Shown here: positions 3,787-42,315 of the stretch, piece after piece
Layout of the letters: each line of letters starts with the position of its first letter
Position numbering within the stretch: position 1 is the first letter of the stretch
IMG/VR virus record: IMGVR_UViG_3300020183_000016
Coordinates: 1-64,000 of that record
Source: a virus
DNA length: 64,000 nt
Direction: 5' to 3' (one strand)
Made by a program: the position numbers and the translations under genes
The notes under the pieces: model-generated
What the model was told of the DNA's origin: nothing
Seen by the model: only the letters and a program-made list of their open reading frames with translations
The model's database searches: none

Positions 3787-4134
3787 ATGAAAATTAGAAA
3801 AAACGGAAAAACGATTACTTTATCTGAATCAGATATGAGAAGAATTGTAAAAAAACTTTTAAGAGAAAGTGTTGACCCAGAAACTGCGGTTCTTGATTGT
3901 ATTAAAGAAAATACAACTTTAACAGATTTGACTGAAATACCTGAAGCGTGTGTAACAATGATTGTTGATAAAGATGTTACTAAAGCATTAGAATGTGGAA
4001 CGAGTATGAATCCAAAAACGGCAAAAATAATTCTTAGTAAAATAGAACCTATTTCTAGATGTGTTGCTGGTAAAATGGGCGGTTCAGATGGAGATAGAGT
4101 TAAAGTACCTGGAACTACTGGAGGTTCATATTAA
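3787..4134 (+). CDS. Small leader-bearing protein
   Basis: A 115-aa protein. Residues 1-27 form a basic amphipathic leader containing LSESDMRRIVKKLLRE, closely related to the leaders of the next two genes. The candidate cut site is L25-R26-E27 before S28. The remaining 88 residues hold four cysteines (about residues 38, 55, 69 and 97) and a Gly/Thr-rich tail, and match no family I know. It follows the sheath gene after a G-rich hairpin, so its expression may be lower than that of the sheath. Confidence 0.8.
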   Translation: MKIRKNGKTITLSESDMRRIVKKLLRESVDPETAVLDCIKENTTLTDLTEIPEACVTMIVDKDVTKALECGTSMNPKTAKIILSKIEPISRCVAGKMGGSDGDRVKVPGTTGGSY

Positions 4135-4135
4135 A

Positions 4136-4174
4136 TAAAAAAAATTAAAATAAATTATAAAGATGAAAAGAAGA
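4136..4174 (+). repeat. 39-bp direct repeat, copy 1 (leader cassette)
   Basis: This stretch (T, eight A, TTAAAATAAATTATAAAG, then ATG and the next 9 bases) is identical to 4671-4709. It spans the A-rich ribosome-entry region and the first four codons of the gene at 4163. Similarity continues at protein level to residue 23. Confidence 0.85.
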
Positions 4175-4645
4175 TTAGTTAGATTAACTGAGTCAGATTT
4201 GACTCGAATAGTTCGAAGAGTTATCAAAGAAGAAGACGAAACCGCTCAAGCTGATGAAGTGGTGAAAGATGTTGATGTTGCACAATACTGTTCAGCTAAA
4301 GGAGTACCAGGTTGGGTTACAAAAACATTAAACGCTTTACCTGCCGACAAAAAAGAAGAGGCGATAGAGTTTATCAAAAATTTTGGAAATGCAGTTAGTG
4401 GTAAAAGTGTTAAAGAATTAATTAATCTTAGAAGAGAAATTAAACAACAAAAACAAAAAGCAGAATCTGCAGGAGCAATAAATGAAAATTTGGCCCCTAT
4501 AATTATTGCAGGTGTTTCTATTTCTGCAAGTGTATTAATTGCAATCGCAGCGATTTTATTGATAATTATAATATTTTTAATTGTTAAAAAATCAAGTGGA
4601 AAAAAATACGGTTGTGGTGGTCCAGGTTGGTGGAATGATTTATAA
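4163..4645 (+). CDS. Leader-bearing protein with C-terminal membrane segment
   Basis: A 160-aa protein. The leader (residues 1-23, with RLVRLTESDLTRIVRRVIKE) differs from that of the next gene at only a few positions and ends at I21-K22-E23. The middle is a charged helix (about 60-100). A strongly hydrophobic segment spans residues 111-138 and is followed by KKSSGKKYGCGGPGWW, a basic and aromatic tail suited to a membrane interface. Its body is unrelated to the body of its neighbour despite the near-identical start. I cannot assign a function; a membrane-active injected protein is a guess from the hydrophobic tail and leader. Confidence 0.8.
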   Translation: MKRRLVRLTESDLTRIVRRVIKEEDETAQADEVVKDVDVAQYCSAKGVPGWVTKTLNALPADKKEEAIEFIKNFGNAVSGKSVKELINLRREIKQQKQKAESAGAINENLAPIIIAGVSISASVLIAIAAILLIIIIFLIVKKSSGKKYGCGGPGWWNDL

Positions 4646-4670
4646 AAAACAATAATTATGAATAATTTAC

Positions 4671-4709
4671 TAAAAAAAATTAAAATAAATTATAAAGATG
4701 AAAAGAAGA
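4671..4709 (+). repeat. 39-bp direct repeat, copy 2 (leader cassette)
   Basis: Identical to 4136-4174, covering the A-rich initiation region and first codons of the gene at 4698. Synonymous and conservative differences begin only after the fourth codon. Confidence 0.85.
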
Positions 4710-5291
4710 GTAGTTAGATTAACTGAATCTGATTTAAGAAGAATAGTTAAAAGAGTAATTAAAGAAGATATGGGTGGCATGGATGATGTACACCCAAGAT
4801 TTGGAAATTTAAATTTATCTGATTATAGTCGAGATGAATTAATGGGTATGAATGACGAAGGGGAATTAAGTAGAGGTGAAGTAATTGAGCTAATTGCTGA
4901 CTTTTTAGAACAAAATGTTTTACCTGAATTAGATCCTACTGAAGTAAGTATTTTACAATCTAAAGTAGATTCTTCTAATGCTAGTAATTTAGCGGAAAGA
5001 TATCTTAGAGAAAATGAAGATTTACCTAGAAATATGGGTGGTAGGAACGCAGAATATATGGAAAAGGCAATGATGGGTGGAGGAGCAGGTTTAGCTTTAA
5101 CAGGTGCAGTATCCGCTTTAGGTTCTTTTATGGGTTGGTCAGAATTTTTGTTAACTCAAAAAATTCATCAGTATGTAGATTCGTTAGGTCTAGGTAACTA
5201 TGCTGGTCCAATATCAGTTGCAATGGTTGCTGCAGGTTTAGCTTTAGTGTTAGGTGGAAGAAACATGAAATACAGAAGAACAGGAATATAA
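4698..5291 (+). CDS. Leader-bearing protein with two hydrophobic segments
   Basis: A 197-aa protein. Residues 1-23 are the leader (VVRLTESDLRRIVKRVIKE) with candidate site I21-K22-E23 before D24. An acidic region follows (about 24-115). Two hydrophobic segments (about 124-147, Gly/Ala-rich, and 170-188) flank a short amphipathic stretch, and the end is basic (KYRRTGI). It is the last of the three small leader genes after the sheath and is directly followed by a hairpin terminator. No family recognised. Confidence 0.8.
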   Translation: MKRRVVRLTESDLRRIVKRVIKEDMGGMDDVHPRFGNLNLSDYSRDELMGMNDEGELSRGEVIELIADFLEQNVLPELDPTEVSILQSKVDSSNASNLAERYLRENEDLPRNMGGRNAEYMEKAMMGGGAGLALTGAVSALGSFMGWSEFLLTQKIHQYVDSLGLGNYAGPISVAMVAAGLALVLGGRNMKYRRTGI

Positions 5292-5293
5292 TA

Positions 5294-5320
5294 AAAAACC
5301 CCTATTTTTTAGGGGTTTTT
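5294..5320. terminator. Bidirectional hairpin terminator
   Basis: AAAAACCCCTA (5294-5304) pairs with TAGGGGTTTTT (5310-5320) around five T. It has T-runs in both directions. It ends the sheath transcript and also the leftward gene, whose TAG stop lies inside the stem. Confidence 0.9.
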
Positions 5321-5640
5321 CTTTGTTCTTTGTATGATTCTAATATTTTAATTATTTCATCTACCTCAACTTTATCTTTGTCACTTACCATTTTCCAGTT
5401 TTTTTTCTCATAAAGGTATTTCCAAAAAATAAAAAAATGTGACAATATTATTAAAGATAAAGTAAATAAATTTATTTTACATATTATAAAATAAGGTATC
5501 AATAAAAATAATAATGTTATAATAAAATTAAAATTTTTTGAATTAGATAAAGACAAAAATTTATAATTTAAAATTACTCTTCTAAGTTTGGAATCAGAAA
5601 CATTTTTATAAAGTTCTGCCTCTTTTTGTATTTTAGTCAT
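5302..5640 (-). CDS. Moron: small two-helix membrane protein
   Basis: A 112-aa leftward gene among rightward tail genes. The start chosen is the ATG at 5640 (MTKIQKEAELYKNV). The longer possible start at 5697 would lie upstream of the promoter at 5656-5686 and is therefore unlikely. Residues 1-30 are charged. Two adjacent hydrophobic segments (FIITLLFLLIPYFIICKI and LFTLSLIILSHFFIFW) suggest a membrane hairpin, and the lysine-rich end is cytosolic. It has its own host-type promoter and terminators on both sides, the hallmark of a moron expressed independently of the phage programme. Superinfection exclusion or another membrane role is possible but not shown. Confidence 0.75.
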   Translation of the reverse strand: MTKIQKEAELYKNVSDSKLRRVILNYKFLSLSNSKNFNFIITLLFLLIPYFIICKINLFTLSLIILSHFFIFWKYLYEKKNWKMVSDKDKVEVDEIIKILESYKEQRKTPKK

Positions 5641-5655
5641 AAGATTTATGTTATA

Positions 5656-5686
5656 CAAATATATAATTATATTTTTAATAAACAAA
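5656..5686 (-). promoter_or_regulatory. Host-type (Bacteroidota) promoter for the leftward moron
   Basis: On the complementary strand TTTG (5686-5683), exactly 19 bases, then TATATTTG (5663-5656). This is a full match to the Bacteroidota consensus TTTG-N19/21-TAnnTTTG. Transcription should start near 5651, about 11 bases before the ATG at 5640. Confidence 0.8.
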
Positions 5687-5714
5687 ATTTTTAACAAAAA
5701 TTTTAAATTTTTTA

Positions 5715-5741
5715 AAACCCAATTTAAAGTTGGGTTTTTTA
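5715..5741 (+). terminator. Hairpin terminator in the divergent gap
   Basis: AAACCCAA (5715-5722) pairs with TTGGGTTT (5730-5737), followed by TTTATTTT. It reads rightward although no rightward gene ends here, so it completes an insulated cassette (5294-5741) around the moron. The gene at 5764 then needs its own start signal, offered by the element at 5752. Confidence 0.75.
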
Positions 5742-5751
5742 TTTTATTTAA

Positions 5752-5760
5752 ATATTTATA
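5752..5760 (+). promoter_or_regulatory. ATATTTATA element
   Basis: Exact copy directly downstream of a terminator and 3 bases before the ATG at 5764. If it is a promoter, the transcript would be leaderless or nearly so. Confidence 0.4.
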
Positions 5761-5763
5761 AAT

Positions 5764-8700
5764 ATGAATAGATTATTTTCAGAAAAAGAAATTAAAAAAA
5801 TTAAAGAATTTATTTATAAAAAACCTTTAAATGAACAGCGATGGTTGGATGATGTTATTGATTCTGCCAAAAATTTAGATACTAGTAAAAATATTTTTAA
5901 GAATATACCTGATATAAAAATTAATTTAAAAGGTGCTGGTAAAAGTTTTAATGATTTTATAGACTTAGGAAATTTAATTTTTAAAAAATTAGAAATAGAA
6001 TCACTAATAACTAAATCAGAATTTACTACATTTAGGAAAAACTGGGATGATACTATTAAAGATTTAACTTTAAAAAATATAAAGACAAAAGATATTTCTG
6101 GAACCGATTTAATTAATTTTGTGAAAGGAAAAGAATTATCTGGTGAAAATTTAAAAAAAATAAACACTGATGATTTAGAATATCTTGTTAGTTTACAAGT
6201 ATTAAATAGGCAAATGATTACTAAAATAGATGATATCGAAAGTAATTTTAACAAATTATTCGCAGAAAAATTAAATGAATATATTAGAATTAATGGTGAA
6301 GAAGGTTTTAAACAATTAAAAAGTGATTTAGGATCAGGTAAAAAAACTTCGGAAGAAGTTTGGCAGATTTTGAAAAACCCAACAAAAAAAGAAAAGGATT
6401 TACCTAAAAGTGAAATCCCTAAAAATGATCCTCAACAAATTGTGGGACTTAAATTATCAGATATCCCAAAAGATGAATATGACATTATAGACGCTTCTTT
6501 TAAAAAATATGGTTTTGATAAAGATTGGGGGTTTGATCCAGATACAGGAGAACCAATTTATGTGACATTACAAATAAATGGACAAAATGTAAAATTTTCT
6601 TTAAACAAACAAGGACCAGAAGAGCTAGATTTTATAAAAATAAGAGATGATAAATTAGAAGATTTATACAGATCTGAATTCGATAAGACTTTTGAAAACA
6701 TGGAATGGTATCAAATACCATCTATAATGGATTGGATTAAAAATCAAAAAATATTAAAAGATCCAAATTTAAGAAGTAAATATTTAAAAAGATATGATGT
6801 TCCATTTGGTGTAAAAATGTATGTAAATGATATAAATGGTAATTTTGGGCAATGGGTTATAGTTAACCCAACCGCAATTGCTGATTATAGGAAACCAAAA
6901 AATTTAGAAGATTTAAAAAATAGTATATTTCATGTAATTTATCATGAATTAACTCATGTTTTACAAAATAATCAAACTAGTATACATGGTAATTACACAT
7001 ATAAATCGGGTTATTTTAAAGATGGTAATGAAGCTTGGGGTTATTTAACTGGTAAAAGAGAAATGTCACCGACTAAAGAAATAGAAATTGATGATTTTGA
7101 TTTTTGGGTGTGGCAAAGAGACGATATAAACAATTTGGAATCTGAAGTTAGAAAATTTGGTGCGGAAAAAAATATAGATACCAGTAAAGACTATACATGG
7201 ATAGAAGATTTTAAAACATGGGCAAAAGATAATAAAATTGTTCCTGAAAAATATATTAAAAAAGTTACCAAAAAAGTTGTTACATCTAAATTTAATACAA
7301 ATTTATTTGGTGATGATGTTAAAGTTAAAGCTATAAAACTTTCTTTAGATGACTGGTCAAATTTTAACGATGAATATAAAAAAATAAAACAAAAAACTGA
7401 TAATTTAGATGATGCTAAATTTTTAAAGTTTATTGAGAATAACTTAAACATTAGAGAGATAGAAAGAATTGTTATGGACGCATCTAAAGAATTAAGTTAT
7501 TGGTCTCATGTTCAGGAAATTGAGGCTGAATTTACTGCCAGTATTAAAAATATATTAGAATTAGGTACATTAGAAAAAAATAAAGGATTTGCCACATTTT
7601 TAGTAGACTATTTAAGGGGTACAGATAAATCACAAAAATTAGTGGACATTGATCTACAAAGAATCAAAAATTCTATAAATATAGAAGAACCTAAACCTAG
7701 AGATTTAAATAATTTAGAAAAAATAAAAGAATTTTTTAAAAAATACATAGATAAATTTTTAAATAAAAATATTACTGATGAGGTAAAATTAGAAAAAGAA
7801 ATATCGAGTGTAGATAGTTGGGTTAATAATATACCTAAAGATTTTTTTGAAGTACTGGGTAAATTAGAAAGAAAATGGAAAAAAATATATCCAGAACAAG
7901 CAAAAAAAATGGAAAAGGGTTTATATAGACAGGCATATAATTTAATTTCTAGTGGATTTCCTGCATTGTTACCATTTATTGCTAGTGGTTTATCAGATGA
8001 TGAAACAGAAGAAACTAAAAACGAATCAATTATCTATAAAAAAAGTTATTTAACAGAGTCATTGAAAAAAACTTATTCTTTTGATTGGGATGATAATATA
8101 TTAAAAATGCCAACAAGAATTCATTTAGATTACAAGGTAGGTGGGATATATTGGGTACCAGTTTCAGTATCAACGGAACAATTTAGATCTATTAGACATA
8201 AATTAGGTTCGGAATTTAGATATAAAAATGATAATATAAATGATGCATTTAAAGATTTTAGAAATTATGATTCTTTTATTAAAGACGTTAATTACGCATT
8301 AGATAGAAGAGATTATGCACCTAGTTTTAATGATTTTAAAGAAGCGTTAATTAATGGTGAAGATTTTTCTATTATAACTGCCAGATCGAATTCACCTAAA
8401 TCTTTAATAGATGGTATTAAAATAATTATAGATAAAAATTTTTCATATGGCAATAAAAAACAAATGGAAAAAAATCTTAAAGGTATATCTATAGAAGAAT
8501 ATCTTAGTTTACAAGATTATCATCCAGTTTCATCAAAAGAATTTTTAGATAATTTTAATTTAGATACTACTGAAAGTAAACCTGAAAAAGGAAAAGAGGT
8601 TGCGTTCGAAAACTTTGTTGATAGGGTAGTAAAACAAATAGACGGTATAATAGATAATCCTAATTTTGAGGGTATTAGTGTTGGTTATAGTGATGATGAT

Positions 8701-8835: not shown

Positions 8836-8852
8836 ATTTTTTTAAAAATACA

Positions 8853-8861
8853 ATATTTATA
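8853..8861 (+). promoter_or_regulatory. ATATTTATA element upstream of tail tube
   Basis: Exact copy 44 bases before the tube ATG. The rest of the leader ends in a run of A with AAAAAAATTAAG before the start, similar to the sheath leader. Confidence 0.4.
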
Positions 8862-8905
8862 TAATAAATAATACAACTAATAAAAAAAATTAAAAAAAAA
8901 TTAAG

Positions 8906-9394
8906 ATGGCTGATTTATTAATGAGAATGCCTGTTCCTTACGAACCACTAAGAAAGAATAGGTTTATTTTGAGATTTCCAGATGAATTGGGGATTCAAGA
9001 ATGGTGGGTATCTACAACTAGCCGACCAAAATATACGAGTTCAGAGGTGGAGATACCTTTTTTAAATACTTCTACATATGTAATAGGTAGATTTAACTGG
9101 GAATCAATCTCTGTGACATTTAGAGATCCAATCGGACCTTCCGCTACACAAGCGTTAATGGAATGGATTCGTTTACACTCTGAATCAGTAACAGGTAGAC
9201 AAGGTTATGCTGCAGGTTACAAAAAAGATGTAGAATTGGAAATGTTGGACCCAACAGGTGTAGTAGTTCAAAAATGGATATTACAAAGTACTCAGTTAAA
9301 TGATGTGGACTTTGGTTCATTAGATTACTCTTCTTCTGATTTGGCAGATATTACGGCAACGCTTCGTTTTGATAGAGCGATTAACGTATTCTAA
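8906..9394 (+). CDS. Tail tube protein (gp19-like)
   Basis: A 162-aa protein, almost the length of T4 gp19 (about 163 aa). It shows the usual pattern: KNRFILRFPDELGI at the N-terminus, the EVEIPFLNTSTYVIGRFNWESISVTF-type beta region (residues about 51-74), a helical loop (ALMEWIRLHSES), and DITATLRFDRAI at the end. It polymerises into the inner tube through which DNA passes. It is a single-gene transcript with a strong A-rich start and a clear terminator behind it, which fits high expression. It lies about 5 kb after the sheath, separated by leader genes and a moron, whereas in T4 genes 18 and 19 adjoin. Confidence 0.93.
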   Translation: MADLLMRMPVPYEPLRKNRFILRFPDELGIQEWWVSTTSRPKYTSSEVEIPFLNTSTYVIGRFNWESISVTFRDPIGPSATQALMEWIRLHSESVTGRQGYAAGYKKDVELEMLDPTGVVVQKWILQSTQLNDVDFGSLDYSSSDLADITATLRFDRAINVF

Positions 9395-9418
9395 AATATT
9401 TTAAAAAGAATTATAATT

Positions 9419-9495: not shown

Positions 9496-10599
9496 ATGAG
9501 AAATAGAATTTTAAATTTAAATGAAGAAATAAGAAGAATTAAATCTTTATTTACTGAAGAAAGAATGTATGGAAATCTTAATGAAGATGATCCTGGTTGT
9601 CAATGTGATGATGAAACCAAAGAAAAATATGGTAAATATGATCCACAAACTAATCAATGTGACCCAAAATTATGTGAATCTGATAAAGATGAAGAGGGTG
9701 ATGGTGGTACGACAGATAAAAAAGATGATAAAACCACTATGATACCTAAAGGTTTTGTAGAATTAACAGATGATAAGAAAAAAGAGATAGAGGGTGATGA
9801 GGCAGACTCATTAGATTTTTATGAAACTAAGGATATAAACGGAAAAAAATATATTAAACGAATGTCTTTTGAAAAAATCAAAATGAAAGTTGGTTATGTT
9901 GATAAACCTAAACCAGGTAGAGATTTAGACTATGTAAAAAGATTTATCAAAGATGATAAAGGTGTACCTGTTGAAATTTTTATAAGTAAAGATGCAGAAT
10001 TGAACTTTTTATCTAAAAAAGAAGGGAAGGGTATAAGAAAAGATATTAAACAAGATGTTAAAAATGATAAAGACGTAATAGATGATAATATAGATAGTTG
10101 TAAAGAACATCTTAAAGCAATGTATAAAGCATGGTTAAAAGGTGCTGGTCCTGGTGATTTAGAAGAATATGGATTTGAGACTGACGCTTATAAATCAGTA
10201 GAAAGATGTATGGCTAATTTTTATAATCGATTTGAGAAGAATGAAGATATTCTAAGAATGGTTAGAGAATTACAAGATACAAATGATGATGAAGGTAATC
10301 CTTTAATAGGTGATTATAAAACAGGTGAAGGTAAAGTATCTAAAGGAGTTGAGGGGGAGAAATATATAGTTAAAAATGATAGGGGTACTAAATTAGGGGT
10401 AATTAAAAAAATAACTGGAAATCAATATAAATTTAATGGGGTAAGAGGTATGACATTCATACAGAAAAAAGGTGATAGACTTATATTTAGAAATAATATT
10501 TTAACACAAATATTTAAAACTCTTAATTTAGATGTCGATAAAAATAAAATTTCTATTATGAAAGGTGATGAAAATAATTGCATATTTAGAGTTCAATAA
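9496..10599 (+). CDS. Leader-bearing protein of unknown function
   Basis: A 367-aa protein. The leader (residues 1-30) contains LNEEIRRIKSLFTEERMYGN and ends L28-N29-E30. The same motif recurs inside the next protein. Residues 34-59 are cysteine-rich (five Cys, with a CQC pair), followed by a Gly/Asp/Lys-rich linker. The remainder is charged and mixed alpha/beta without a domain I can name. There are two more cysteines around 199 and 236 (SCKEHLKAMYKAWLKG and ERCMANFYNRF). A near-copy of ATATTTATA (9456-9464, last base T) precedes it. It begins a run of three large leader genes spaced only 2-3 bases apart, so they are probably co-translated. Confidence 0.75.
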   Translation: MRNRILNLNEEIRRIKSLFTEERMYGNLNEDDPGCQCDDETKEKYGKYDPQTNQCDPKLCESDKDEEGDGGTTDKKDDKTTMIPKGFVELTDDKKKEIEGDEADSLDFYETKDINGKKYIKRMSFEKIKMKVGYVDKPKPGRDLDYVKRFIKDDKGVPVEIFISKDAELNFLSKKEGKGIRKDIKQDVKNDKDVIDDNIDSCKEHLKAMYKAWLKGAGPGDLEEYGFETDAYKSVERCMANFYNRFEKNEDILRMVRELQDTNDDEGNPLIGDYKTGEGKVSKGVEGEKYIVKNDRGTKLGVIKKITGNQYKFNGVRGMTFIQKKGDRLIFRNNILTQIFKTLNLDVDKNKISIMKGDENNCIFRVQ

Positions 10600-10602
10600 A
10601 TA

Positions 10603-13600
10603 ATGAAAAAAAAAATTTTTATAACTGAAAATCAGTATAAAAGGATTTTTTTAAATGAAAGTGATCCACCAAAGTATACTGTCAAACAAATAGGATATAC
10701 TCCTGTGTGGAATAAGCATTTATTATTATATACACATCCAGCTTATTATGACTATTTAGATGTTCCTAAAGGTTTGTGCTGGAAAAAAAATTCTGACGGT
10801 ACATGGAGTTATGTGTATAGTGATGTACAAATTGCATTATTAGCTAGTCAAGGTAAGAAAACTACTGCCAGTGTAGAAGATAAAGATATTGCAAAAAAAA
10901 GGATTGATGCGGAAAATGAAAAATTTTTTAAACAAAATATAAAAAGTAAAAAAGATTCTGACGCATTTAGATTATGGGTTAATGATCCTGATTTTCCTCA
11001 AAGAATTAAAGATGTAAATAAAGCATTAAAAAGTAATGGTTTACCTGGTACATTAGATAAAACTAGTAACGCACCATATGATAACAAATATATGAAAGTT
11101 GCCTTTAATAAATTAGGTAGATTTTATGTTTTGGATGTCATTGGGATGGAACAAAAGAAAAAAAAGGGATATAATGAGTATGGTACAGAATACGTAAACC
11201 AAAGTCGTATATATAAAGATTATTTAGAAACATTAAAATCTTGGGATTCTTCAAATAAAACATTTGGGTGGACTAACCCTAAAACTGTCAATTCTGATAA
11301 AATACAACAAATATTAGAAGGTAAGGTATCATCATCAACATGTATTAACCCATCTTATATATTGAGATCGATGGAAGAATTAGAGGTTAAGATGTATCAA
11401 TCAATACGTGAATATAATACACAAATTGATCCTCAAGCAATTATGGGTAGATTAGGATTTGATACTGAAATGCAAAATATCTATCCGAAAACAAATAATA
11501 AAAAAGAAAAAGAATTTAACATTTTATCTAAAATGGAAAAAGAAAATCCAGAAATGGCGAAACTGTTAAATTCTTTCCAAAAAGATGTCCCTTCAGTAGA
11601 AAAAGAAATATTACAAAAAGCTGGTCCTAAATTCAAAGAATACTTAGAAGATTATAACACATATAAGATAGTGTTAGATCAAATTGAGTTACATAATATT
11701 ATTATTAGAAATAATACTCCCGAAAAATTAAATAATGCATGTTCAGATCCAGTTTATTATGTGAAAACATATTCTGTACCTGTATCGGCACCAGGATCAG
11801 GTGGCGGAGGTGCTAAAATTAATGAAACTTTTACTTGGAAACAAGCGTGTTCTAAAAATGGTGGGATATTTATGTACCCATCACAATCTGAAGAAGTGGA
11901 AGGTGGTGTAAAAAGAAAAGGATTTATTGGTGGTAGGGCTATTTGTTGTTGTGTTAACCCAAAAGGGAATGCTAATGTAACGGTAAAAGGTGCGGAAGGA
12001 AATTATCAAGCTACTATTAATATAGAAGAATGGTGTGGTAAAAGTACTGGTAACGTTCTAAGTGGGTGGGATAGATTTGATCAATGGACACAAGATTGTG
12101 CTGAAGATTGGCATTGTATTGCAGACATTGCCTCTATCGTAGTTTTGGCAATTGGTCCTTATGGTATTTTAATTAGTGGTATAATTGATGCAATAAGTGC
12201 GGCTGGTTATGTGATAGAGGGTAAAGAAGGATGGAAATTAAATGCAGGATTAACTATGTTAGGTGCATTTGGTGGTTTAGCAGAAGCAGGGAAATTATTA
12301 AAATATGGTTCTAAATTTACAGGTAGATTAGAAGAATTAACCAAAGCTTTAAAAATGGTAGATGGTGACCCAATTAAAAGTAGACAAATTTTAAGAGATT
12401 TTGCAAGAACTTTATCTCCTGATGAAGCTAAACAATTTAAGAATTTTGGTAAGGTTGCTAATAGTGATGAAATAATTAATAAATTTGGTAAAGGTGGTGA
12501 ATTTACAAATGAATATAATAAATTAGATAAAATGCAAAAAGGTGTTTTTGCAGAAATGTTAAAGAAAGAAACACCCGCTAATTTAGAAAAATTATATACT
12601 AAGTCAAATAAAAATTTAAGTAAAATGGTTAATGCTTACAATAAAGGTATTAAACAAGTTATTATACAAGGATCTTTATTTGCTGGTATGTATGTTTATA
12701 GTGAAGAATTAGGTAAAGCGTTAAAAGCTCTTTATGATAAAACTGGTTTTGATCCATTAGGCGTTTTTACTTCTAACGGTGAGATAGATAACTCTAAACT
12801 TAGTCCAGATTTTACTAATATCATTTCTAATGAAGAAAAAATAGATAGTTTATTTTCTCAGTTATCTAAGAGTGGGTTTATAGATAAGAAAAATTTTAAA
12901 GAAGAAACTGATTTATTAGTAAATTTTTATCTTAATATCCAACAAATTATAAAATTACCTAACAAATCTTTAGAAGCGGCAGCTTTATTACTAAATAAAG
13001 AAGTGGCTTTTCAGATAAATGGTAAAAGATATAAACATAAAGATATAAAAGAGGTAATAGATTTAGTTAATCCAATTTTAGAAGGTATATTAAATAAAAC
13101 TTATACAGAACAGGAAGGTATTAATTTAATTAATGATAAAATAGTTGTTTTAAAAACTATGACAAAACCTAATATTAAACCAATAGTTAAAACTGCGGTA
13201 TTAGTTACAGGGGATACTGAATTGACGGATGAACAAATAGACGAATTTCAAAATATGTTAATGACAGGTGAAGGAAATCAAGTTCCAAAAAAAATAGATG
13301 AGGGTATGAAAAAATTAAATGAAGAAATAAAAAGAATGAAATCATTATTTTCAGACGAAAGATTATATGGAAATTTAGTTAACGAAGTATGTGATAATGA
13401 ATCTGAAGCAATTAATTTTTTAAAGGATAAAGGTTATATTGTTAGACAAAGTAATGAAGGAGATTTATGTTTGGGTCCAAATACTCAAATAGGTAAGATT
13501 TACAACAAATACAGATCAAATACACAATTATCATTTCAATCTGGAACATCACCTGACGGTTGTTATTTAGGTATATATAGAAAAGATAAAACTAGTAGAG

Positions 13601-14099: not shown

Positions 14100-16427
14100 A
14101 TGAAAAATTTTGAGTCGAATATAAATAATATAAAACTTCTTATGGAGAGAATGAATGGTTTTAAAACGTTCAATGAAGTTAGTACAAGTTTAAAAAAATT
14201 AATAGTTGAGGGTATTGGTGATGAATTAATTAAATCGACAAGAAATATAGGAAGATCCATTAATTTTAACACTCCGTCTCTAAAAAATTTAGAGAATAGT
14301 GCTGAAAGAATGGGTGATGCAATCGATAATTATGATACTGCGATAAGGAATATAAGATCAGGTGGTTCATTTGAAAACCTTAAAAATTTATTAAATGCAA
14401 AAAGTCTAAGAATAACAATGGATAATTTTGCAGAAAATTTAACCACTACTTTTTTAAAATATTTTGATGAACAAAATATTTCAGTAAATAGAGTTAATTT
14501 AAAAAATTATATAATGGGTAATACTATGGAAATGCCTGCAGATGTTTTGAGGAATTTAACTCCTTCACAGATAGATGAATTAACTAAATTAAATTACTTA
14601 ATGAACCAATTAGTTATTACAGATTTTCATTTAGATAAATTAAATAAAATAAATGAAATGTGGAATAAATTAAATAAACCTGATGATTTTAGAAACGTAA
14701 TATTAGGTTTTGTAAGTGATGATGGTATTAAATCTATTGATGAATTAGAAAATAATTTTAAAAGATTAGATGATTTAAAAAATGGTAGTACACCAAAGGA
14801 ACAAGAACTTTATGATATTTGGAGAAGGATTAAAGAACAAATAGGGATGAGTGAATGGGACGGAAAGGATTTTAGAACCCTTTTGAAAGATAATTTTTCT
14901 AATGACCCTAAATTTAAAATAATGGAAAGTAGTTTTATAAATAAATTGAAGTTTTGGGGGGACAAAAAAATTAGGGTAAAATTAGAAAAATTATCTACTA
15001 AAGATTTAAATTGGGAGAATGTTATTATTTACCATAATAAAAGTAATGGTAAAACATATATTTTAGAATTTAAATCTAAAAATCAATTTAACTCCTATAA
15101 AAAATATTTACAAGATAGAGGATTAGATTTTACTGCACCAGGTAATAAAGATGAAGGTTTAAGCGCGGTTGAAAAATTGGCTAGGTTTCAGTTATTAAGA
15201 AATAAGATAATGATAGGTACTTATATAACTGTTGGGGCGACTTTACTTTTAGCCACTACTTATTGTTTAATTTCAGCGGCAGATTTAGATCCTGAGTCAA
15301 TATATCTTAGGAAAAAAAGTAGTGGTGGAGAAGCGGTAACAGATACTAGTTATATAAAAAGATTTGCGGAATGTGGTTGGGGGATATTGACATTTGCTTC
15401 TAGTGTAGTAGATTTAGAAGATATATGGAGAAGTGAAATTTTAGGACCTTTTCAGGAATTTGACGGTTATATAATAACACAAATAGAAAAAATATGTCCT
15501 CCCGATACAAGTGGGAATGAAAAATGTTGTATGGAATGTAATAATGACGAAAAATTAAAAACAATTATTGCAGATCCTAAATTTATGAAAATATATGAAG
15601 GAGTTGTTAAAAAGTTGAGTCCTGAAAAATTAAAAGAAATTGCCAATAGAAGTGGTATAGAAAATACTGAATCACTGGTTATTGATATTTTAGAAAAGGC
15701 AAAAACTGATAAAACAGTTGCAGGATATTTAACAGAAGAAGGTAAACCTATGACATTTCAAGAAATTCTTAGAATGAAATGTAACCAACAAGCTTTACCT
15801 TGTGTTGAGAAACGTGTACAAAAAATATATCAAGAAATATTAGATATTGTTGCGACAAAAGATTGTGAATCGATAAAGAATGAAGCCTATAAGAGAGTAG
15901 ATGAATTAAAATCTTATGGTGATGCGGGATATATTACAGTTAATGTTTCAGATAAAACCAATACTAAAAATCCAAAGGTATATATTGATATAATGAAACG
16001 ACAAGATATTTTTGGTAAAGTTACTAATTTAGATGAATTTTTTATAATTCTTAGAAATTGGATTGATATGGTAGTTGTAGAGGCAAAATGTAATACAGGT
16101 GCAGAAGAAACAGAAGAGATTGACGTTAACATAGTTAATGATTTTGAGGTATGGTGTGATGAAAATAGAAAAGATTCATCAAAATCAAAAAATTTAATGG
16201 AATACTTATGGGTTGAGGGTGTTGCTAAATTAGAATGTAATGTTGATGTTACAGAAGAATGGTTTAGTCCTGACCCTAGAAATAAGGCTAATAGGAGTCT
16301 ACAATTATTCTCTATTTTTGATGATCACTTTGAACCTATTTTCCCTTCAATAGATAGATTAGATGCGGATTGGGACGATGCCTTTAATTATTGGTACGAT
16401 AAACAAAAAAGTTATTGTGGATATTAA
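14100..16427 (+). CDS. Leader-bearing protein with a central membrane segment
   Basis: A 775-aa protein starting 2 bases after the previous stop. The N-terminus (MKNFESNINNIKLLMERMNG) is leader-like. Possible cut sites are F24-N25-E26 or, fitting the group pattern better, I35-V36-E37 before G38. Residues about 369-394 are hydrophobic (IMIGTYITVGATLLLATTYC). The C-terminal 380 residues are cysteine-containing (CCMECNN near 480) and mostly helical. No family recognised. The spacing suggests translational coupling to the two genes before it, so the three products may act together. Confidence 0.7.
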   Translation: MKNFESNINNIKLLMERMNGFKTFNEVSTSLKKLIVEGIGDELIKSTRNIGRSINFNTPSLKNLENSAERMGDAIDNYDTAIRNIRSGGSFENLKNLLNAKSLRITMDNFAENLTTTFLKYFDEQNISVNRVNLKNYIMGNTMEMPADVLRNLTPSQIDELTKLNYLMNQLVITDFHLDKLNKINEMWNKLNKPDDFRNVILGFVSDDGIKSIDELENNFKRLDDLKNGSTPKEQELYDIWRRIKEQIGMSEWDGKDFRTLLKDNFSNDPKFKIMESSFINKLKFWGDKKIRVKLEKLSTKDLNWENVIIYHNKSNGKTYILEFKSKNQFNSYKKYLQDRGLDFTAPGNKDEGLSAVEKLARFQLLRNKIMIGTYITVGATLLLATTYCLISAADLDPESIYLRKKSSGGEAVTDTSYIKRFAECGWGILTFASSVVDLEDIWRSEILGPFQEFDGYIITQIEKICPPDTSGNEKCCMECNNDEKLKTIIADPKFMKIYEGVVKKLSPEKLKEIANRSGIENTESLVIDILEKAKTDKTVAGYLTEEGKPMTFQEILRMKCNQQALPCVEKRVQKIYQEILDIVATKDCESIKNEAYKRVDELKSYGDAGYITVNVSDKTNTKNPKVYIDIMKRQDIFGKVTNLDEFFIILRNWIDMVVVEAKCNTGAEETEEIDVNIVNDFEVWCDENRKDSSKSKNLMEYLWVEGVAKLECNVDVTEEWFSPDPRNKANRSLQLFSIFDDHFEPIFPSIDRLDADWDDAFNYWYDKQKSYCGY

Positions 16428-17435: not shown

Positions 17436-18587
17436 ATGTTATATAAAAAAAACGGAAAAATTTTAGACATACTATATTTAATGTCTGAGTCTATTGATAA
17501 TCTTTTAGGTGAAGGTATAATTGTTACACCAGATTCTAATGGAGAAGTCAAAACAAAAAAACAAAAGTTTACGGTAGTTGAAGATGATCAATTACCTCCT
17601 AACACTGATACTGAATTTTATATTGAATTAAAAGATGCTAAAGAATATAAAAGTGACGTAAAAGTAGGTGATGAAATAGAAATAGAGGTGGTTGATATGG
17701 AATCTATGACTGATGATGGACTTTTAGATTTTTTATCTAGTGATGAAATAAGTGCAGAAGATTTAGAAAAAATTGTATTAGCTAGGGGGACAACTATAAG
17801 AGTTGCTGGGAAAGTATTAAAATATGGTCCTAGACAAATAAGTAGAATTAAAAAAGTTGCTAGTGCGGCATTACAAATGAAAAAATATGCCGAAAGATAT
17901 GGAAAAAAAGTAGAACATAGTAGATGTTATTGTTTAACAATATTTGATGATAATGTAGAAGAGGATAGTGGTAAAGCGGATATAAATGTATATAAAGCCT
18001 CAATTGCTGATCAACCAGAACAAATTCAAGAAGATTTATTATCTACTTGGGATTATTGTGAAAATAAATATGGTAAATATATAATTGAGAAAGATGATAG
18101 GGATAAAACCTCTTTATCTTGTTCACAATTAGAAGATTGGTATGAGGATGCAGAAAGTTTAATAGATGATATGATTAGTGATTTACAACAATTTTATAAA
18201 ATAAAAGGTTATAATAAAGAAACCGAAAAGTATAAAGATTATTCAAGTAATAAATCTGTTGGTGAAAAAATAGTTCTTCACGATTACATGTTAATTAAGT
18301 TTAATGGTGATGTAACATATAGTCCTGGTGGTGGTGGATCTACTACAACATTATATAATGATGATCAGGTTGTAAAATTTGAAATATTAAAAACTTATGG
18401 AGAAAGAGGTGATACAGTTTTAGTACAAAAAGAAGGTACAACTAATAGATATATTATGGGGTTTGACACTGAAAAGGTAAAAAAAGCACAAGGAAACAAC
18501 GCTTTTTGGGTTGTTAACGCTGACGGTTCTATTAGTAATATTAAAACTGTTTGGAGTGGTAAAATATTAGAATATATAGATAATTAA
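17436..18587 (+). CDS. Leader-bearing protein between chaperone and tape measure
   Basis: A 383-aa protein. The N-terminus (MLYKKNGKILDILYLMSESI) fits the leader group and ends L24-G25-E26 before G27. An ATG at codon 16 is an alternative start. The body is very acidic, with a helical middle containing a CYC pair near 170 and a C-terminal third of mixed strands with a Gly-rich loop (SPGGGGST). No family recognised. It ends 1 base before the tape measure start, suggesting coupled translation and perhaps a role in tail assembly rather than as cargo. Confidence 0.7.
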   Translation: MLYKKNGKILDILYLMSESIDNLLGEGIIVTPDSNGEVKTKKQKFTVVEDDQLPPNTDTEFYIELKDAKEYKSDVKVGDEIEIEVVDMESMTDDGLLDFLSSDEISAEDLEKIVLARGTTIRVAGKVLKYGPRQISRIKKVASAALQMKKYAERYGKKVEHSRCYCLTIFDDNVEEDSGKADINVYKASIADQPEQIQEDLLSTWDYCENKYGKYIIEKDDRDKTSLSCSQLEDWYEDAESLIDDMISDLQQFYKIKGYNKETEKYKDYSSNKSVGEKIVLHDYMLIKFNGDVTYSPGGGGSTTTLYNDDQVVKFEILKTYGERGDTVLVQKEGTTNRYIMGFDTEKVKKAQGNNAFWVVNADGSISNIKTVWSGKILEYIDN

Positions 18588-31742: not shown

Positions 31743-32459
31743 ATGAATAAAAATAGACTTATTTCTGAAGATTTAAAAAGGTATAAACAACTTTTAGAAT
31801 ATACTTTTTATGTGCCAGAAGAAAAAGAAAAAGATTTAAATGGAGATTTATTATTAGATGATTCTTTTTTAACTGAACAAGATCCTGCAGGTGACGATCC
31901 TTTTATGGATGTCGCAGATGACGAAGGCGGACAAGCACCAACTACTGGTGACACTGAAACTACTACAGATGACGAAGGTGGACAAGCACCAACTACTGGT
32001 GACACTGAAACTACAACAGGTGCTGAGGAAGTTGAAATAGAAGATGAATTTGCGGATGAAGGTGATGATACTATTGAAGTTGATGTAACAGATATTGTAG
32101 ATAATACTGAAGAAACAAAAAAATCTGTAGATAATGTAAGTAATAAAATGGAGGATTTACTTGCCAAATTATCAGAGTTAGAACAACAAGTTAGTGGTAT
32201 GGATAAAGTTATTGATAAGATAGATTCGTTAGAAAAGGAAATAGAAAAGAGAAATCCTACACCTGTTGAAAGATTAGAACTTAGATCTATGGACTCTTTT
32301 CCATATAGTGTAAAATTAACTGATTTTTGGAAAGATAAAGATGGTTACGATGTAGAAGGTGAAGAAGAAAATGAATATGTTTTAAGACAAAGTGATGTCG
32401 ATAATTTTGATAGGAATCAAATAAAGGCATCGTTTAATTATTCAGAAAAAAAAGATTAA
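31743..32459 (+). CDS. Acidic leader-bearing protein with tandem repeat and coiled coil
   Basis: A 238-aa protein. The start (MNKNRLISEDLKRYKQLLEY) is leader-like, and the first (I/L)xE that fits the pattern is L43-T44-E45 before Q46, later than in the other members. Residues 59-92 are two copies of a 17-residue Asp/Glu/Thr-rich repeat. A coiled coil follows (about 130-175, KMEDLLAKLSELEQQVSGMD), then a compact end (VERLELRSMDSFPYSVKL). Highly acidic composition plus coiled coil recalls scaffold or core proteins, but that is only an analogy. It closes the rightward block before the replication module, with a terminator behind it. Confidence 0.7.
   Translation: MNKNRLISEDLKRYKQLLEYTFYVPEEKEKDLNGDLLLDDSFLTEQDPAGDDPFMDVADDEGGQAPTTGDTETTTDDEGGQAPTTGDTETTTGAEEVEIEDEFADEGDDTIEVDVTDIVDNTEETKKSVDNVSNKMEDLLAKLSELEQQVSGMDKVIDKIDSLEKEIEKRNPTPVERLELRSMDSFPYSVKLTDFWKDKDGYDVEGEEENEYVLRQSDVDNFDRNQIKASFNYSEKKD
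31917..32018 (+). repeat. Two tandem 51-bp units inside an acidic protein
   Basis: Units 31917-31967 and 31968-32018 encode the same 17 residues (DDEGGQAPTTGDTETTT) and differ at only a few third codon positions, pointing to a recent duplication. Confidence 0.9.
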
Positions 32460-36110: not shown

Positions 36111-36117
36111 AAACGTT

Positions 36118-37500: not shown

Positions 37501-37518
37501 AGTAAAAAAAATAAAAAA

Positions 37519-37584: not shown

Positions 37585-37598
37585 AAAACTATTAAAAA

Positions 37599-39458: not shown

Positions 39459-39461
39459 GTT

Positions 39462-39542: not shown

Positions 39543-39544
39543 TA

Positions 39545-39757
39545 ATGAATGTAGGTGCGTCAAAAGATTGGATCCAACAACTATATGTAAGAGAATTTGA
39601 ACCTAAACTACAACCAAATGAATTTTATTATGATAATCAAGGTAGGATAGTGATGACTGAAGAGTATCATAAAAGAAGAGGTAGTTGTTGTGGTAGTGGT
39701 TGTAAACATTGTCCTTACGAACCTAAACATTTAAAAGGTAATACTTTTATAAAGTAA
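39545..39757 (+). CDS. DUF5522-like cysteine-rich protein
   Basis: A 70-aa protein with YYDNQGRIVMTEEYHKRRGS followed by CCGSGCKHCPY (about 48-58). This cysteine-histidine cluster is the hallmark of the DUF5522 family, common in Bacteroidota genomes. It probably binds a metal; the role is unknown. Its presence supports the host assignment and suggests acquisition from a host. It is the last gene of the replication-nucleotide block, with its stop just before a terminator hairpin. Confidence 0.8.
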   Translation: MNVGASKDWIQQLYVREFEPKLQPNEFYYDNQGRIVMTEEYHKRRGSCCGSGCKHCPYEPKHLKGNTFIK

Positions 39758-39790
39758 ATAAAAGTCGGATTTCTCCGACTTTTATTTTTT
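39758..39790. terminator. Bidirectional hairpin terminator
   Basis: ATAAAAGTCGGA (39758-39769) pairs with TCCGACTTTTAT (39774-39785), a 12-bp stem with loop TTTC and T-rich tails in both directions. It ends the replication block and the convergent moron, whose TAA stop lies in the stem. Confidence 0.93.
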
Positions 39791-40339
39791 ATATAATAAG
39801 GAAATCATTTCTTTATCCCTTTCTGTCATATCAACGCTTTTACTTTTTAAAATAGTATTTTTCTCATTTTCTTGATGGCAAAAACCTAAAATATGGAACA
39901 TTTCGTGTCTTATGGTTATCGGAGTACATTTATGTTTACCACACTCTATAATATCTATATGAGTTCTACATTTGACTATTTTTTTACCAGCGTGATATAT
40001 GTATGTTATTCCAGTAGAATTTTTTACATCTTTTGAACTCCAATCAAATAATTTTATGAATTCATCATCTGAAGTAAAATATATTACAGAGTTAGATTTA
40101 TCGATATCATCAACAATTGTTATTTTTATTGATTCCATAAGAGAATTAAATTCTTTTACGGTACTTACCACAGTTTCATAGTTTTCTTGAGTATAATTAC
40201 CGTAAAGAAATAATTTTATGTCTGTATTCCATTTTTCACCATAATGAGTGGCATTATCAAATTCAATTTTGGTAAAATTTTCTTGAGAAAAACAAGAGAT
40301 ACTATTTAAAATTAATAGTGATAAAAGTATTTTTTTCAT
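39782..40339 (-). CDS. Moron: secreted metzincin-type zinc protease
   Basis: A 185-aa leftward gene. The start chosen is ATG 40339 (MKKILLSLLILNSISCFSQE), giving a typical flavobacterial signal peptide with cleavage near CFSQ-EN. The in-frame ATG at 40363 lies in the promoter. The mature protein carries H145-E-M-F-H149-I-L-G152-F-C-H155, the full HExxHxxGxxH zinc motif of metzincins. A C-terminal DMTERDKEMISLLY segment resembles the end of matrixin-like and DUF2927 proteins. Four cysteines (near 123, 132, 137 and 154) may form disulfides. It should act in the periplasm or outside the host cell. Substrate unknown. The gene is insulated by its own promoter and terminator. Confidence 0.82.
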   Translation of the reverse strand: MKKILLSLLILNSISCFSQENFTKIEFDNATHYGEKWNTDIKLFLYGNYTQENYETVVSTVKEFNSLMESIKITIVDDIDKSNSVIYFTSDDEFIKLFDWSSKDVKNSTGITYIYHAGKKIVKCRTHIDIIECGKHKCTPITIRHEMFHILGFCHQENEKNTILKSKSVDMTERDKEMISLLYKK

Positions 40340-40360
40340 AGTTGTTAAGTATTTATATAA

Positions 40361-40392
40361 CAAATATAATATTTATTTTTTTAACTGCCAAA
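40361..40392 (-). promoter_or_regulatory. Host-type promoter for the metzincin moron
   Basis: On the complementary strand TTTG (40392-40389), exactly 20 bases, then TATATTTG (40368-40361), a full consensus match. Transcription would start near 40356, 17 bases before the ATG at 40339. Confidence 0.8.
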
Positions 40393-40410
40393 AAAAATTA
40401 TAATTAATTT

Positions 40411-42315
40411 ATGAGGAATTTATTTGAGGAATTACAAAGGATGAAAAATTTGATGGTGTATGATAAGGGTTCATACATTATGGAAGTGAGTACCTCATCA
40501 CAACCCAATATAAATAAGAGTAGTGATAAACCTGCAACAGATAAACCTGCAGCAGATAAACCTGAACAAAATCAAGATACTAAATCATCATCAGAAGGTG
40601 GTCAAAAAACTGCAGATAAAAATGATTGTTTTTTTGTGAAAGCTACGGGAAGATTTGTGGTAGATGTCCCTACAGGATCAAAAGCAGTAGAAAATTTTAT
40701 AATAGAACTTAGAAAAGTTGTTAGTGCCAATCCTGAATACCAAGAAGCATTGGATAGTGGTACAATGTATATAAGAGATATTACGTTACAAGGTTTTGCT
40801 AGTAATTTTTATGGTGGACCTGTAGAACCCCAATTTGATAATGACTATTGTAAAAAATGGGAAATACCTCCAGATAGGAAATATGGTGGTGTTTGTACAC
40901 AATTTGAATTTAAACCTTTTAGTGGTAAAAAATTACCTAAATCCCAATATAAAGGTGATCAAGCCACCAATCAAAAATTGGCTAGAAAAAGGGCAGAGAA
41001 TTTATTTGCCGTAATTAAAGAAACTTTAGAAAAACATGGAAAAACTTATGGTATAAAATTAGATCCAACCACCGAACCTAAATATATTGAGGGGGGTAGT
41101 TTATATACTAAAGATAATGTTGATGAGTATTGGAGGACGTTAATCGCTACAGGAAAACTTAATCCTGGACAAATAGTTGCGGTAACCGCAAATGTGTGTT
41201 ATACTCTTAAAGAACCTTGTCCTGATCCTTGTATGGAAAAAGATGATTCTGGTAATTGTAAATGTCCTGAAGGTATGACATATAACGAAGAAACTAAACA
41301 ATGTGAATGTCCTCCTGAACAAATTAAAGAAGGTTGTTTATGTAAAACCAAAGAAAAAGAACCTTGTCCTGATTGTATGGAAAGGTTAGAAGAGGACGGA
41401 GAATGTGAATGTAAAAAAGGGTTATATAAAGTAGACGGTAAATGTTTTTGTGATAAGGCAGGTAAGAAATCTCCTGATGAAAATTGTGAGTGTGGTTGCC
41501 CTAAATGTATGAAACGTGATGAAAATGGTGAATGTAAATGTCCTGATGGGATGACATATAATGAAAAAACTGAAAAATGTGATTGTCCAGAAGGTAAAAT
41601 AAAACCAACAGAGGATGCGTGTAATTGTATTACACCTAAACCCCCAATAAAATGTAATCAAGAGTATAAAAAAGAAGGTGCTAGAGGAACAAAACAAAAT
41701 AATTTTGTTGCGGCAACAGTTAAAAGTAGTTTTCCTGCTGGTGCTGGTGATGTTATAACAATCGCATTTGATTCATTAGTAGTTCCTGACGCATTTTATG
41801 TTAGATATGGAGATCAAGAATTCTTTAGTGGATTTATGGGGGATGTTTATAATACAGAATATAGACAAATTGCGCTAAGTATTCCAGAAAGAAAAAAAAT
41901 GTTACCGTTACAATCAAAAACAACAAAAGAAAAGATTAAAAAATCTTTAGCTGATGGTGATAACGATTATAGTCAAATGGAAAACATTGTAAGAAATTTT
42001 GTTGGTGAATTAATAATCTATAAACGTGAAGATGGTTTATTAGAAAGTATTAATGCGGCGATTAAATCTGAGGGTGGTAAGTTAAACGTAAAAGATATAT
42101 TTAAAAATGGTGATGCTGAAGCGGAAAAAATAACCGATGACATAATAAATTCAGGAAGTATTGCGGATAACATAGGTAGATATGGTTCTATAATGAAATC
42201 AGGTGCTTCTTTTAAAATTAATAAAGAAACAGAAAATCTTGAATTAATAGTATTGGCATTTTCCCCACTAGATAGAACAATATTCAATATGCAAATTAAA
42301 TGTAGTCAAGAATAA
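40411..42315 (+). CDS. Leader-bearing protein with OmpA-like and EGF-like cysteine-rich parts
   Basis: A 634-aa protein. Residues 1-25 are the leader, ending I23-M24-E25. A low-complexity linker with DKPA/DKPE repeats follows (about 37-55). Residues about 85-290 resemble an OmpA-like domain (DITLQGFASNFYGG, then NQKLARKRAENLFAVIKETL). Residues about 270-405 contain three cysteine-rich repeats of about 42-45 residues built on CPxxCM, GxCxCPxGMxYN, CxCP and a final CxC, similar in spacing to EGF-like modules. The C-terminal 220 residues have a beta-rich domain (SFPAGAGDVITIAFDSLVVP). Binding to cell wall or surface would fit, but is inference. It starts the second tail block. Confidence 0.7.
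   Translation: MRNLFEELQRMKNLMVYDKGSYIMEVSTSSQPNINKSSDKPATDKPAADKPEQNQDTKSSSEGGQKTADKNDCFFVKATGRFVVDVPTGSKAVENFIIELRKVVSANPEYQEALDSGTMYIRDITLQGFASNFYGGPVEPQFDNDYCKKWEIPPDRKYGGVCTQFEFKPFSGKKLPKSQYKGDQATNQKLARKRAENLFAVIKETLEKHGKTYGIKLDPTTEPKYIEGGSLYTKDNVDEYWRTLIATGKLNPGQIVAVTANVCYTLKEPCPDPCMEKDDSGNCKCPEGMTYNEETKQCECPPEQIKEGCLCKTKEKEPCPDCMERLEEDGECECKKGLYKVDGKCFCDKAGKKSPDENCECGCPKCMKRDENGECKCPDGMTYNEKTEKCDCPEGKIKPTEDACNCITPKPPIKCNQEYKKEGARGTKQNNFVAATVKSSFPAGAGDVITIAFDSLVVPDAFYVRYGDQEFFSGFMGDVYNTEYRQIALSIPERKKMLPLQSKTTKEKIKKSLADGDNDYSQMENIVRNFVGELIIYKREDGLLESINAAIKSEGGKLNVKDIFKNGDAEAEKITDDIINSGSIADNIGRYGSIMKSGASFKINKETENLELIVLAFSPLDRTIFNMQIKCSQE

Follow-up and report, generated by a model that had tools for sequence, protein, structure and literature searches.

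Three described systems come closest to the one treated here, as reported in the accessible parts of the sources cited. In phage T4, the internal proteins carry N-terminal propeptides of 10 to 19 residues that target them to the prohead core and are cut by the gp21 protease after L/I-X-E; in one of them, IPIII, targeting is affected by residues 4 and 7, and processing by residues 8 and 10 (PMC9026906; further facts on these capsid-targeting sequences [CTSs] are given in PMC3012670). Cleavage follows S/A-x-E in phiKZ (PMC9026906) and A-x-E in SPN3US, for which a targeting role has been proposed for the propeptides of gp47 and the protease (PMC7411985). In P1, the first 30 N-terminal residues of DarB suffice to carry a reporter into the head, and the phage appears to do without a separate scaffold (PMC9024508). 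Here, we analyze short N-terminal leaders in a window of 64,000 nucleotides, bases 1 to 64,000 of the 125,740-bp virus record IMGVR_UViG_3300020183_000016 (G000), which appears to be a fragment of a phage genome. An earlier note on this window had claimed that eleven proteins with unrelated bodies, scattered through the tail genes, begin with a basic amphipathic helix followed by (I/L)xE, and had proposed that they are targeted, processed virion cargo. We read these leaders as, most probably, a larger-scale counterpart of the T4 CTS that is unrelated to it in sequence.

Besides the window, we read the open reading frames (ORFs) of the remaining stretches of G000 and of two relatives, G009 (129,345 bp) and G010 (253,879 bp, the largest relative). 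As a cultured relative, Flavobacterium phage vB_FspM_immuto (immuto) was used, with bases 1 to 150,000 of its 160,410. Proteins of at least 60 residues, named below by their start positions, were searched with four profile hidden Markov models, built from regular-expression seeds and subjected to one round of extension: A (LTESDLxRIVKRVIKE), B (ITENQYKRLxxNE), C (NEExxRMKxLM/F...LxE), and D (MKxxIKKILKEE). The cut-off was the lowest at which matches in 2,653 internal 45-residue segments amounted to no more than 2% of the N-terminal matches; this internal control, with 1 to 4 matches per profile, set the cut-offs and is hence not independent. In the pooled set of N-termini, from which L031 and L033 (parts of G009 and G010) were excluded, identical first 60 residues were collapsed to one. 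The four profiles found leaders on 380 of 3,374 distinct N-termini; A, B, and D have many of their proteins in common. Tagged proteins amounted to 15/127 in G000, 13/114 in G009, 43/309 in G010, 10/208 in immuto, and 5/231 in Mel-JY01. Eight were judged false (123128 in G000; 183445, 229726, 239783, and 245042 in G010; 4807 and 77116 in G009; 28447 in immuto), which leaves 14, 11, 39, and 9 in the first four; two of the eight, G009 77116 (gp32-type) and G010 183445 (656 residues), had passed the C profile. The five of Mel-JY01, unjudged, include the capsid protein and a protein annotated as a protease.

That the leader families are real we regard as practically certain. The leaders of the proposed tail-gene cohort stand; their distribution turned out to be genome-wide and to extend beyond the tail genes. 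Their bodies are indeed unrelated: the 39 tagged G010 proteins of at least 90 residues, including two judged false, represent 37 mutually unrelated body clusters. Sheath, tube, baseplate, and replication genes are untagged, as the earlier note had stated, in all 21 reference genes found in the G000 gene list (34573 is absent from that list). Among these, Pfam confirms sheath, gp32, DnaB, and gp25, with RecA and Baseplate_J just below the cut-off; the remaining labels are putative, some of them being those of the earlier note. In the left part of G010 (L046 to L049), the first 40 kb hold 67 genes, of which 17 are tagged, with small leader genes in runs that recall a variable internal-protein locus. 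A further repeated leader, FDLKKFLVENKLTxNSKLLKE-like, is present in immuto 1803, 103806, 117631, and 118632 and resembles the N-terminus of gp069, a neighbor of the protease. An upstream promoter TAnnTTTG was considered as a leader-linked element and rejected, given its presence at 2/43 tagged and 31/265 untagged G010 genes. Searches with tblastn of the phage collection using single leaders of 26 and 31 residues gave no match.

As to the cut site, [IL]xE occurs in 40 to 45% of random internal 40-residue windows of G000, G009, and G010 and in 34 to 37% of those of immuto and Mel-JY01, and counting the motif was rejected as evidence for being too common. The earlier note had itself called for a statistical test. 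Once run, it bore out an enrichment at residues 11 to 30 and left single sites proving little: in G000, G009, and G010 together, the density of [IL]xE was 2.65 per 100 residues at residues 11 to 20 and 2.39 at residues 21 to 30, compared with 1.27 to 1.68 in the seven 10-residue bins from residue 31 to 100, an approximately 1.8-fold increase (Poisson p = 6e-14, orthologues left in). In C-type leaders with a recognizable core, [IL]xE followed within 25 residues in 35/38 cases versus 16.2 expected from shuffles (p = 2e-10); counted by body cluster, since several orthologues are included, 21/22 clusters had at least one such member and 19/22 had all. Two families place the boundary of conservation at the site. 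Nine members of the 10603 family were aligned, two of them with just 25% identity to the first. Of their 26 invariant columns, 9 fall in residues 1 to 19, the last of these being L17 and E19 and the next residue 250; residue 18 is N, K, T, or V in the eight orthologues with an intact N-terminus, the ninth being truncated. The 9496 family (seven proteins) has 29 invariant columns, 16 of them in residues 1 to 30, the last of these being L28 and E30 and the next residue 47; two rows have one extra residue between the L and the E (NLITE). Exceptions to the L/I-x-E ending are the internal leader of 10603 (V-N-E) and 17436 (M-S-E). The predicted helix and the site together are not a weak signal, unlike (I/L)xE by itself.

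The search for a prohead protease, which the earlier note had proposed, succeeded in a relative, with an S77 protease in G010 (E = 4e-24), and gave no match in the window's own record. A gp23-type capsid protein was also detected in G010 (E = 4e-62), the one among 13 relatives' records with both; the other 12 matched neither. The S77 protease was confirmed by Pfam in the loci L077 and L114 and is annotated in immuto, as is a gp23-type capsid protein. At the position where T4 gp23, by eye, has FLTE-A, G010-clade capsid proteins have ...NQAS.LLNE-STS or variants. This putative junction was L/I/M-x-E, with mostly N at P2, in all 76 G010-clade loci in which it was found, and several [ILM]xE-S sites were recognized by eye in the G010 scaffold. 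These capsid and scaffold cut sites are predictions by position.

The scaffold itself provided a further line of evidence. In the G010 clade, the ORF before the capsid gene, at the gp22 position, ends with (L/I)xE-S...RMKDLMxKL or variants, and in the immuto clade it ends with (I/V)xE...RMQKLAGIIK or variants. A matching RMKxLM/RIKxLM helix is carried by G010-clade leaders (40411 of the window; 161747, 225860, 189242, and others of G010), and leaders of immuto (25061, 111675) contain RMQxLAGIITE-S. For these two immuto proteins, KNV73_gp230 (25061-25456) and gp083 (111675-112139), the mature forms are predicted to begin with SEMWDR... and SQFNEE..., respectively; ILSE-Q, further toward the N-terminus, is an alternative candidate site. 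One leader class resembles the predicted C-terminal helix of its own scaffold and covaries with it by lineage, which is a new result. In the head loci of the G010 clade, a loose RMKxLM pattern matched 46 C-termini (43 of matched scaffolds), no N-terminus, and nothing in 262,398 internal residues; in G000, G009, and G010, it matched 7 N-termini, 1 C-terminus, and nothing in 117,200 internal residues, and it was absent from immuto-clade loci. In immuto-clade loci, the corresponding LAG pattern matched 68 C-termini (61 of matched scaffolds), 7 N-termini, and 2 internal positions in 232,345 residues; in the G010 clade, it matched nothing. The two lists of related loci hold the best 80 of at least 600 loci each; L031 and L033 remain in the gp26-region group of this count, whose 8 N-terminal matches were not used.

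Both patterns were picked after seeing both ends, and profiles built from scaffold ends alone are a fairer test. At 8 bits, scaffold-only profile A (clade A, that of G010) matched 10/1,910 N-termini and 0/7,598 internal segments of its own clade, 0/1,105 immuto-clade N-termini, and 0/12,355 internal segments of all clades. Scaffold-only profile B (clade B, that of immuto) matched 9/1,105 N-termini and 0/4,089 internal segments of its own clade, 3/1,910 N-termini of the other clade, and 1/12,355 internal segments of all clades. The own-clade Fisher p values were 1e-7 and 9e-7, respectively. The outcome was similar when 550 proteins had been searched earlier with scaffold sequences only; one nonleader then ranked among the three best proteins after the scaffold itself. 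We consider it likely that scaffold mimicry is the basis of targeting for the C and LAG types. Leader-type helices were also seen at the extreme C-terminus of L266 2475-3650, L278 1687-2835, L356 7152-7415, L260 48-197, and L038 99-1487; in the L278 protein, both termini are leader-like.

Leader genes are also found among the head genes of some relatives. Between the S77 protease and the scaffold, four profile-positive ORFs are present in L077 and one in L114. An automatic count, which requires a particular protease motif and missed these two loci, found a tagged ORF in this interval in 7/68 loci; most loci had none. In 11 immuto-clade loci, a tagged ORF of 77 to 88 residues lies upstream of the protease; wherever the portal gene could be placed, such ORFs are flanked by portal and protease genes, as genes 67 and 68 are in T4. 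Inspection by eye of the immuto-clade interval between protease and scaffold revealed leaders on 11 of the 28 ORFs of 50 to 130 residues: LAG-type (L206 twice, L209, L223), FN/FD-type (L157, L158, L173), and MKxSEL-type (L220 and L233, two each), where L158/L173 and L220/L233 are near-duplicates within this count.

Taken together, the relatives' protease and capsid junctions, the L-x-E boundary, the scaffold likeness, and the leader genes in the head cluster support the proposal of the earlier note that these proteins are targeted, processed virion cargo. The N-terminal basic amphipathic helix would attach the cargo to the prohead during assembly and, in one class, would do so by mimicking the helix in which the gp22-like scaffold ends; the S77 (gp21-like) prohead protease would then cut after the (L/I)xE beyond the helix, and the mature protein would stay in the head, many such proteins probably being ejected into the host with the DNA. 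Prohead binding, cleavage, virion presence, and ejection are what we infer from the sequences. We hold it to be quite probable that the leaders are capsid-targeting propeptides that direct proteins to the prohead and are cleaved at the site given; our confidence was lowered very slightly because of the V at P3 in the immuto-clade capsid proteins and the higher false rate, both described below. If this is correct, the head-carried and probably injected proteins of mostly uncultured T4-like phages could be predicted by a leader profile, the likeness to the scaffold terminus would explain targeting in molecular terms, an explanation open to testing in a single cultured Flavobacterium phage, and an N-terminus family for which we found no published function would gain one.

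Several observations weigh against this reading and are set here beside the alternatives. (i) As to cleavage, a contrast in [IL]xE of 274/334 versus 1,110/2,446 is partly circular, since the profiles include the E. At P1', A-type and B-type leaders (E, Q, N, S) differ from the capsid junctions (A, S, Q, T), and in the immuto clade, P3 of the capsid junction is V in 66/74 and I in 8, a looser predicted match to the I/L of the leaders. These differences would be expected if the leaders docked on the prohead or shell and were generally no protease substrate, the E being the end of the helix; many leaders do finish with a helix rich in K/R that is followed by E, and [IL]xE is common by chance. This is nevertheless unlikely, given that 35 of 38 C-type leaders have the site past the helix core, that the 10603 orthologues fix L at P3 and E at P1 while P2 varies, and that the capsid proteins of the G010 clade have the same kind of site. 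(ii) As to the protease, the 125,740 bp of G000 contain no S77 or gp23 match, and the link rests on relatives. Co-occurrence with S77 was rejected as evidence for being nondiscriminating: the protease was present in 13/16 leader contigs (all those of at least 117 kb among 80 of at least 120 matches listed) versus 4/14 random contigs (of at least 51 kb, among 80 of 117 matches listed; 4/7 at 73 kb or more), S77 thus being frequent in large viral contigs. Neither S77 nor gp23 was matched in the remaining three leader contigs, and a further contig, G023, has S77 and no gp23 match. (iii) As to the profiles, 8 of the 81 tagged proteins in G000, G009, G010, and immuto were judged false, a share above the control's 2%; the actual rate of false matches is closer to 10% than to 2%. 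(iv) As to the scaffold, the 8-bit line was chosen from a table of four thresholds; at 6 bits, profile A matched 17/1,910 N-termini versus 14/7,598 own internal segments, and at 4 bits, 30/1,910 versus 34/7,598. With the scaffold-end profile, internal segments score up to 7.7 bits in the other clade, and no G000 protein reaches 8 bits, 40411 being best with 6.7. A scaffold counterpart was found for the C and LAG types and none for A, B, and D. Mel-JY01 and RM378 were rejected as a third lineage with scaffold-like leaders: they have a LAG-type scaffold end and N-terminal copies on 0/217 and 0/154 proteins, respectively. (v) T4 IPI to IPIII score no more than 0 bits with the four leader profiles, except for IPI with 0.2 for D, and because of this lack of a profile match to the T4 leaders we do not call the present ones a T4 CTS family by descent.

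(vi) Lastly, leaders occur outside recognizable phage genomes. A search of 84,980 bacterial and archaeal genomes for LTESDLxRIVK yielded 23 stretches, 18 of them in a called ORF, mostly in Bacteroidales and many in metagenome-assembled genomes. Lone genes with a LTESDLHRIVKESVN-type leader are present on the chromosomes of the isolates Segatella baroniae B14 (L371 1104-1367) and Prevotella sp. MA2016 (L376 5795-6823), with no phage genes visible in the 8-kb stretch of either, and 11 of 13 tested bacterial assemblies with the A-type pattern gave no S77 match; the lone copies may possibly be phage relics. Such copies in Prevotella chromosomes would also suit leaders that are membrane-binding, tail- or baseplate-docking, or host-factor helices on proteins outside the head, as would the basic amphipathic look, the position of several window leaders next to the sheath and tube genes, and the cell-wall enzymes among the cargo (see below), which occur in tails too. 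We judge this alternative slightly less probable still than docking without cleavage: it leaves aside the likeness to the scaffold end with its covariation by lineage and the leader genes between protease and scaffold, and none of the 21 reference genes of G000 is tagged. That the leader is a shuffling N-terminal module, a recombination or expression element with no targeting role, would agree with the 37 unrelated G010 body clusters behind one superfamily and with the fusion and fission of leader genes but is very improbable in view of the conservation at the protein level, the L-x-E end with its variable P2, and the similar helices at the C-termini of scaffolds and a few other proteins, which an expression element does not explain.

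With capsid targeting and cleavage as the preferred reading, the individual leaders of the window can be described. They are 18 to 45 residues long and, by eye, are basic amphipathic helices that end in E. The ten plus-strand ORFs named by the earlier note are present at the starts it gave, and the minus-strand ORF, truncated where the record begins, has an ATG at 304 and the leader MRTINEYKK...PLIVE (221..304, minus strand). The profile search of the N-termini that had been suggested there retrieved eight of the eleven (3787, 4163, 4698, 9496, 10603, 14100, 31743, and 40411); 5764 and 17436 were below the cut-off, and the truncated minus-strand ORF was outside the searched set. We kept 5764 and 17436 as leaders because their orthologues are leader-like. 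All features that follow are on the plus strand. Three A-type leaders matched by profile are LSESDMRRIVKKLLRE (3787..3867), with a predicted cut after residue 27, LTESDLTRIVRRVIKE (4163..4231), and LTESDLRRIVKRVIKE (4698..4766), the last two with a predicted cut after residue 23. The 1,023-residue protein 5764, which by eye contains an HExxH motif and a HAD-like domain, begins with LFSEKEIKKIKEFIYKKPLNE (5764..5835), supported by its G010 orthologue; the putative site reads PLNE in the window and LISE in G010. Profile and orthologue columns both support the C-type leader LNEEIRRIKSLFTEERMYGNLNE (9496..9585) and the B-type leader FITENQYKRIFLNE (10603..10659). The leader of 14100, supported by profile and orthologues, ends with LIVE at residue 37 (14100..14210), where orthologues have IITE, ILTE, ILLE, or VLLE. 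For the 383-residue protein 17436, the LGE chosen by the earlier note is not conserved, and the conserved candidate site is at residue 18 (17436..17489), where all eight sequences, that of the window included, have (L/I/M)xE-(S/T) at one place, M-S-E in the window. The profile-positive leader LISEDLKRYKQLLE... has SFLTE-Q at residue 45 (31743..31877), with TLNE-Q in G009, and the C-type leader FEELQRMKNLMVYDKGSYIME (40411..40485), with NINE in G010, holds the scaffold-end motif RMKxLM. Pfam and PHROGs gave weak matches, mainly of coiled-coil type, for the ten plus-strand proteins, with a NusA_N match above the cut-off in 17436. AlphaFold models of 9496 and 10603 had a mean predicted local distance difference test score of 55 and 57, respectively, and no Foldseek match at an E value of 0.001 or better. 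Two pairs of similar DNA segments (74% identity) lie immediately ahead of genes. In one pair, 4639-4700, preceding 4698, resembles 8839-8908, preceding the tube gene; in the other, 5652-5715, preceding 5764, resembles 85901-85965 of G000, preceding 85977.

Some leaders are internal. Residues 902 to 928 of 10603 form a complete second, C-type leader with a former start Met, MKKLNEEIKRMKSLFSDERLYGNLVNE (13306..13386), followed by a further domain. Elsewhere, this domain is encoded on its own, behind a leader of its own (G010 189242, G009 95369, L019, L022, and L024), whereas the fused form is present in L010, L012, and L014; in L016, the pattern found none. The 189242-type domain keeps its leader whether fused or separate. 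Similarly, an internal LTE-S just ahead of the HAD-like domain of 5764 (8050..8058) aligns with the LKE-T of the leaders of stand-alone HAD genes in L010 and L021. The second leader in 10603 would be the trace of a gene fusion and a possible site of cleavage in the head. These cases suggest precursors that would be cut into several products. A bolder and tentative extension, to which we give somewhat less than an even chance, is that the leaders are address tags whose classes copy different termini of the prohead core (the scaffold C-terminus and the small proteins at the T4 gp67/68 positions), loading the products of about one in eight genes, among them multi-domain precursors with internal leaders (10603 and perhaps 5764) cut in the prohead, as a large injected proteome that could be recognized in uncultured genomes from the sequence itself.

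A DNA-pattern search of IMG/VR for LTESDLxRIVK retrieved at least 120 stretches; among the matches listed, the motif lies within the first 45 residues in 114/117 ORFs (in one of these, a 49-residue ORF, it is also at the C-terminus) and at the extreme C-terminus in the other three. For the cargo, 75 leader proteins were scanned for families (the 81 tagged minus the 8 judged false, plus 5764 and 17436). The matches include peptidase M23 (3), peptidoglycan-binding domains (4), and one each of NlpC/P60, CHAP, and protein phosphatase; the M23 domain is at the C-terminus of G010 111654, whose G000 orthologue is 92796. At least 53/75 had no Pfam match at an E value of 0.001, PHROGs and NCBIfam having also been scanned. 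Cell-wall enzymes would suit ejected proteins and also tails, and we lean only slightly toward the view that most of the leader cargo is ejected into the host. LTESDL, KLTESDL, and RMQKLAGI were absent from the searchable literature, which did not cover subscription journals; no published description of these leaders or their function and no virion proteomics of Flavobacterium T4-like phages were found in it.

Compared with the known systems, the present leaders share several features with the CTSs that gp21 cuts from T4 IPI, IPII, IPIII, and Alt: these are likewise short, N-terminal, attached to unrelated bodies, and terminated by (I/L)xE, and a gp21-type protease is present in the group. In the T4 DNA, IPII and IPIII begin with MKTYQEFIAE-A, and T4 gp24 scores 6.2 bits with leader profile A, below its cut-off of 9.5. 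As a lead only, the start of the T4 scaffold, MLKEQLIAEA, resembles by eye the CTS ending QEFIAEA. As is proposed here for the leader proteins, many head or ejection proteins of phiKZ and SPN3US carry propeptides that are cleaved; a resemblance to the scaffold is not mentioned in the accessible text of the source. For P1 DarB, removal of the leader by a protease is likewise not mentioned in the text available from its source. The leaders described here differ from the T4 CTSs in that they are longer, belong to at least four sequence types, and precede dozens of cargo genes rather than about four, and in that one type resembles the C-terminus of the scaffold.

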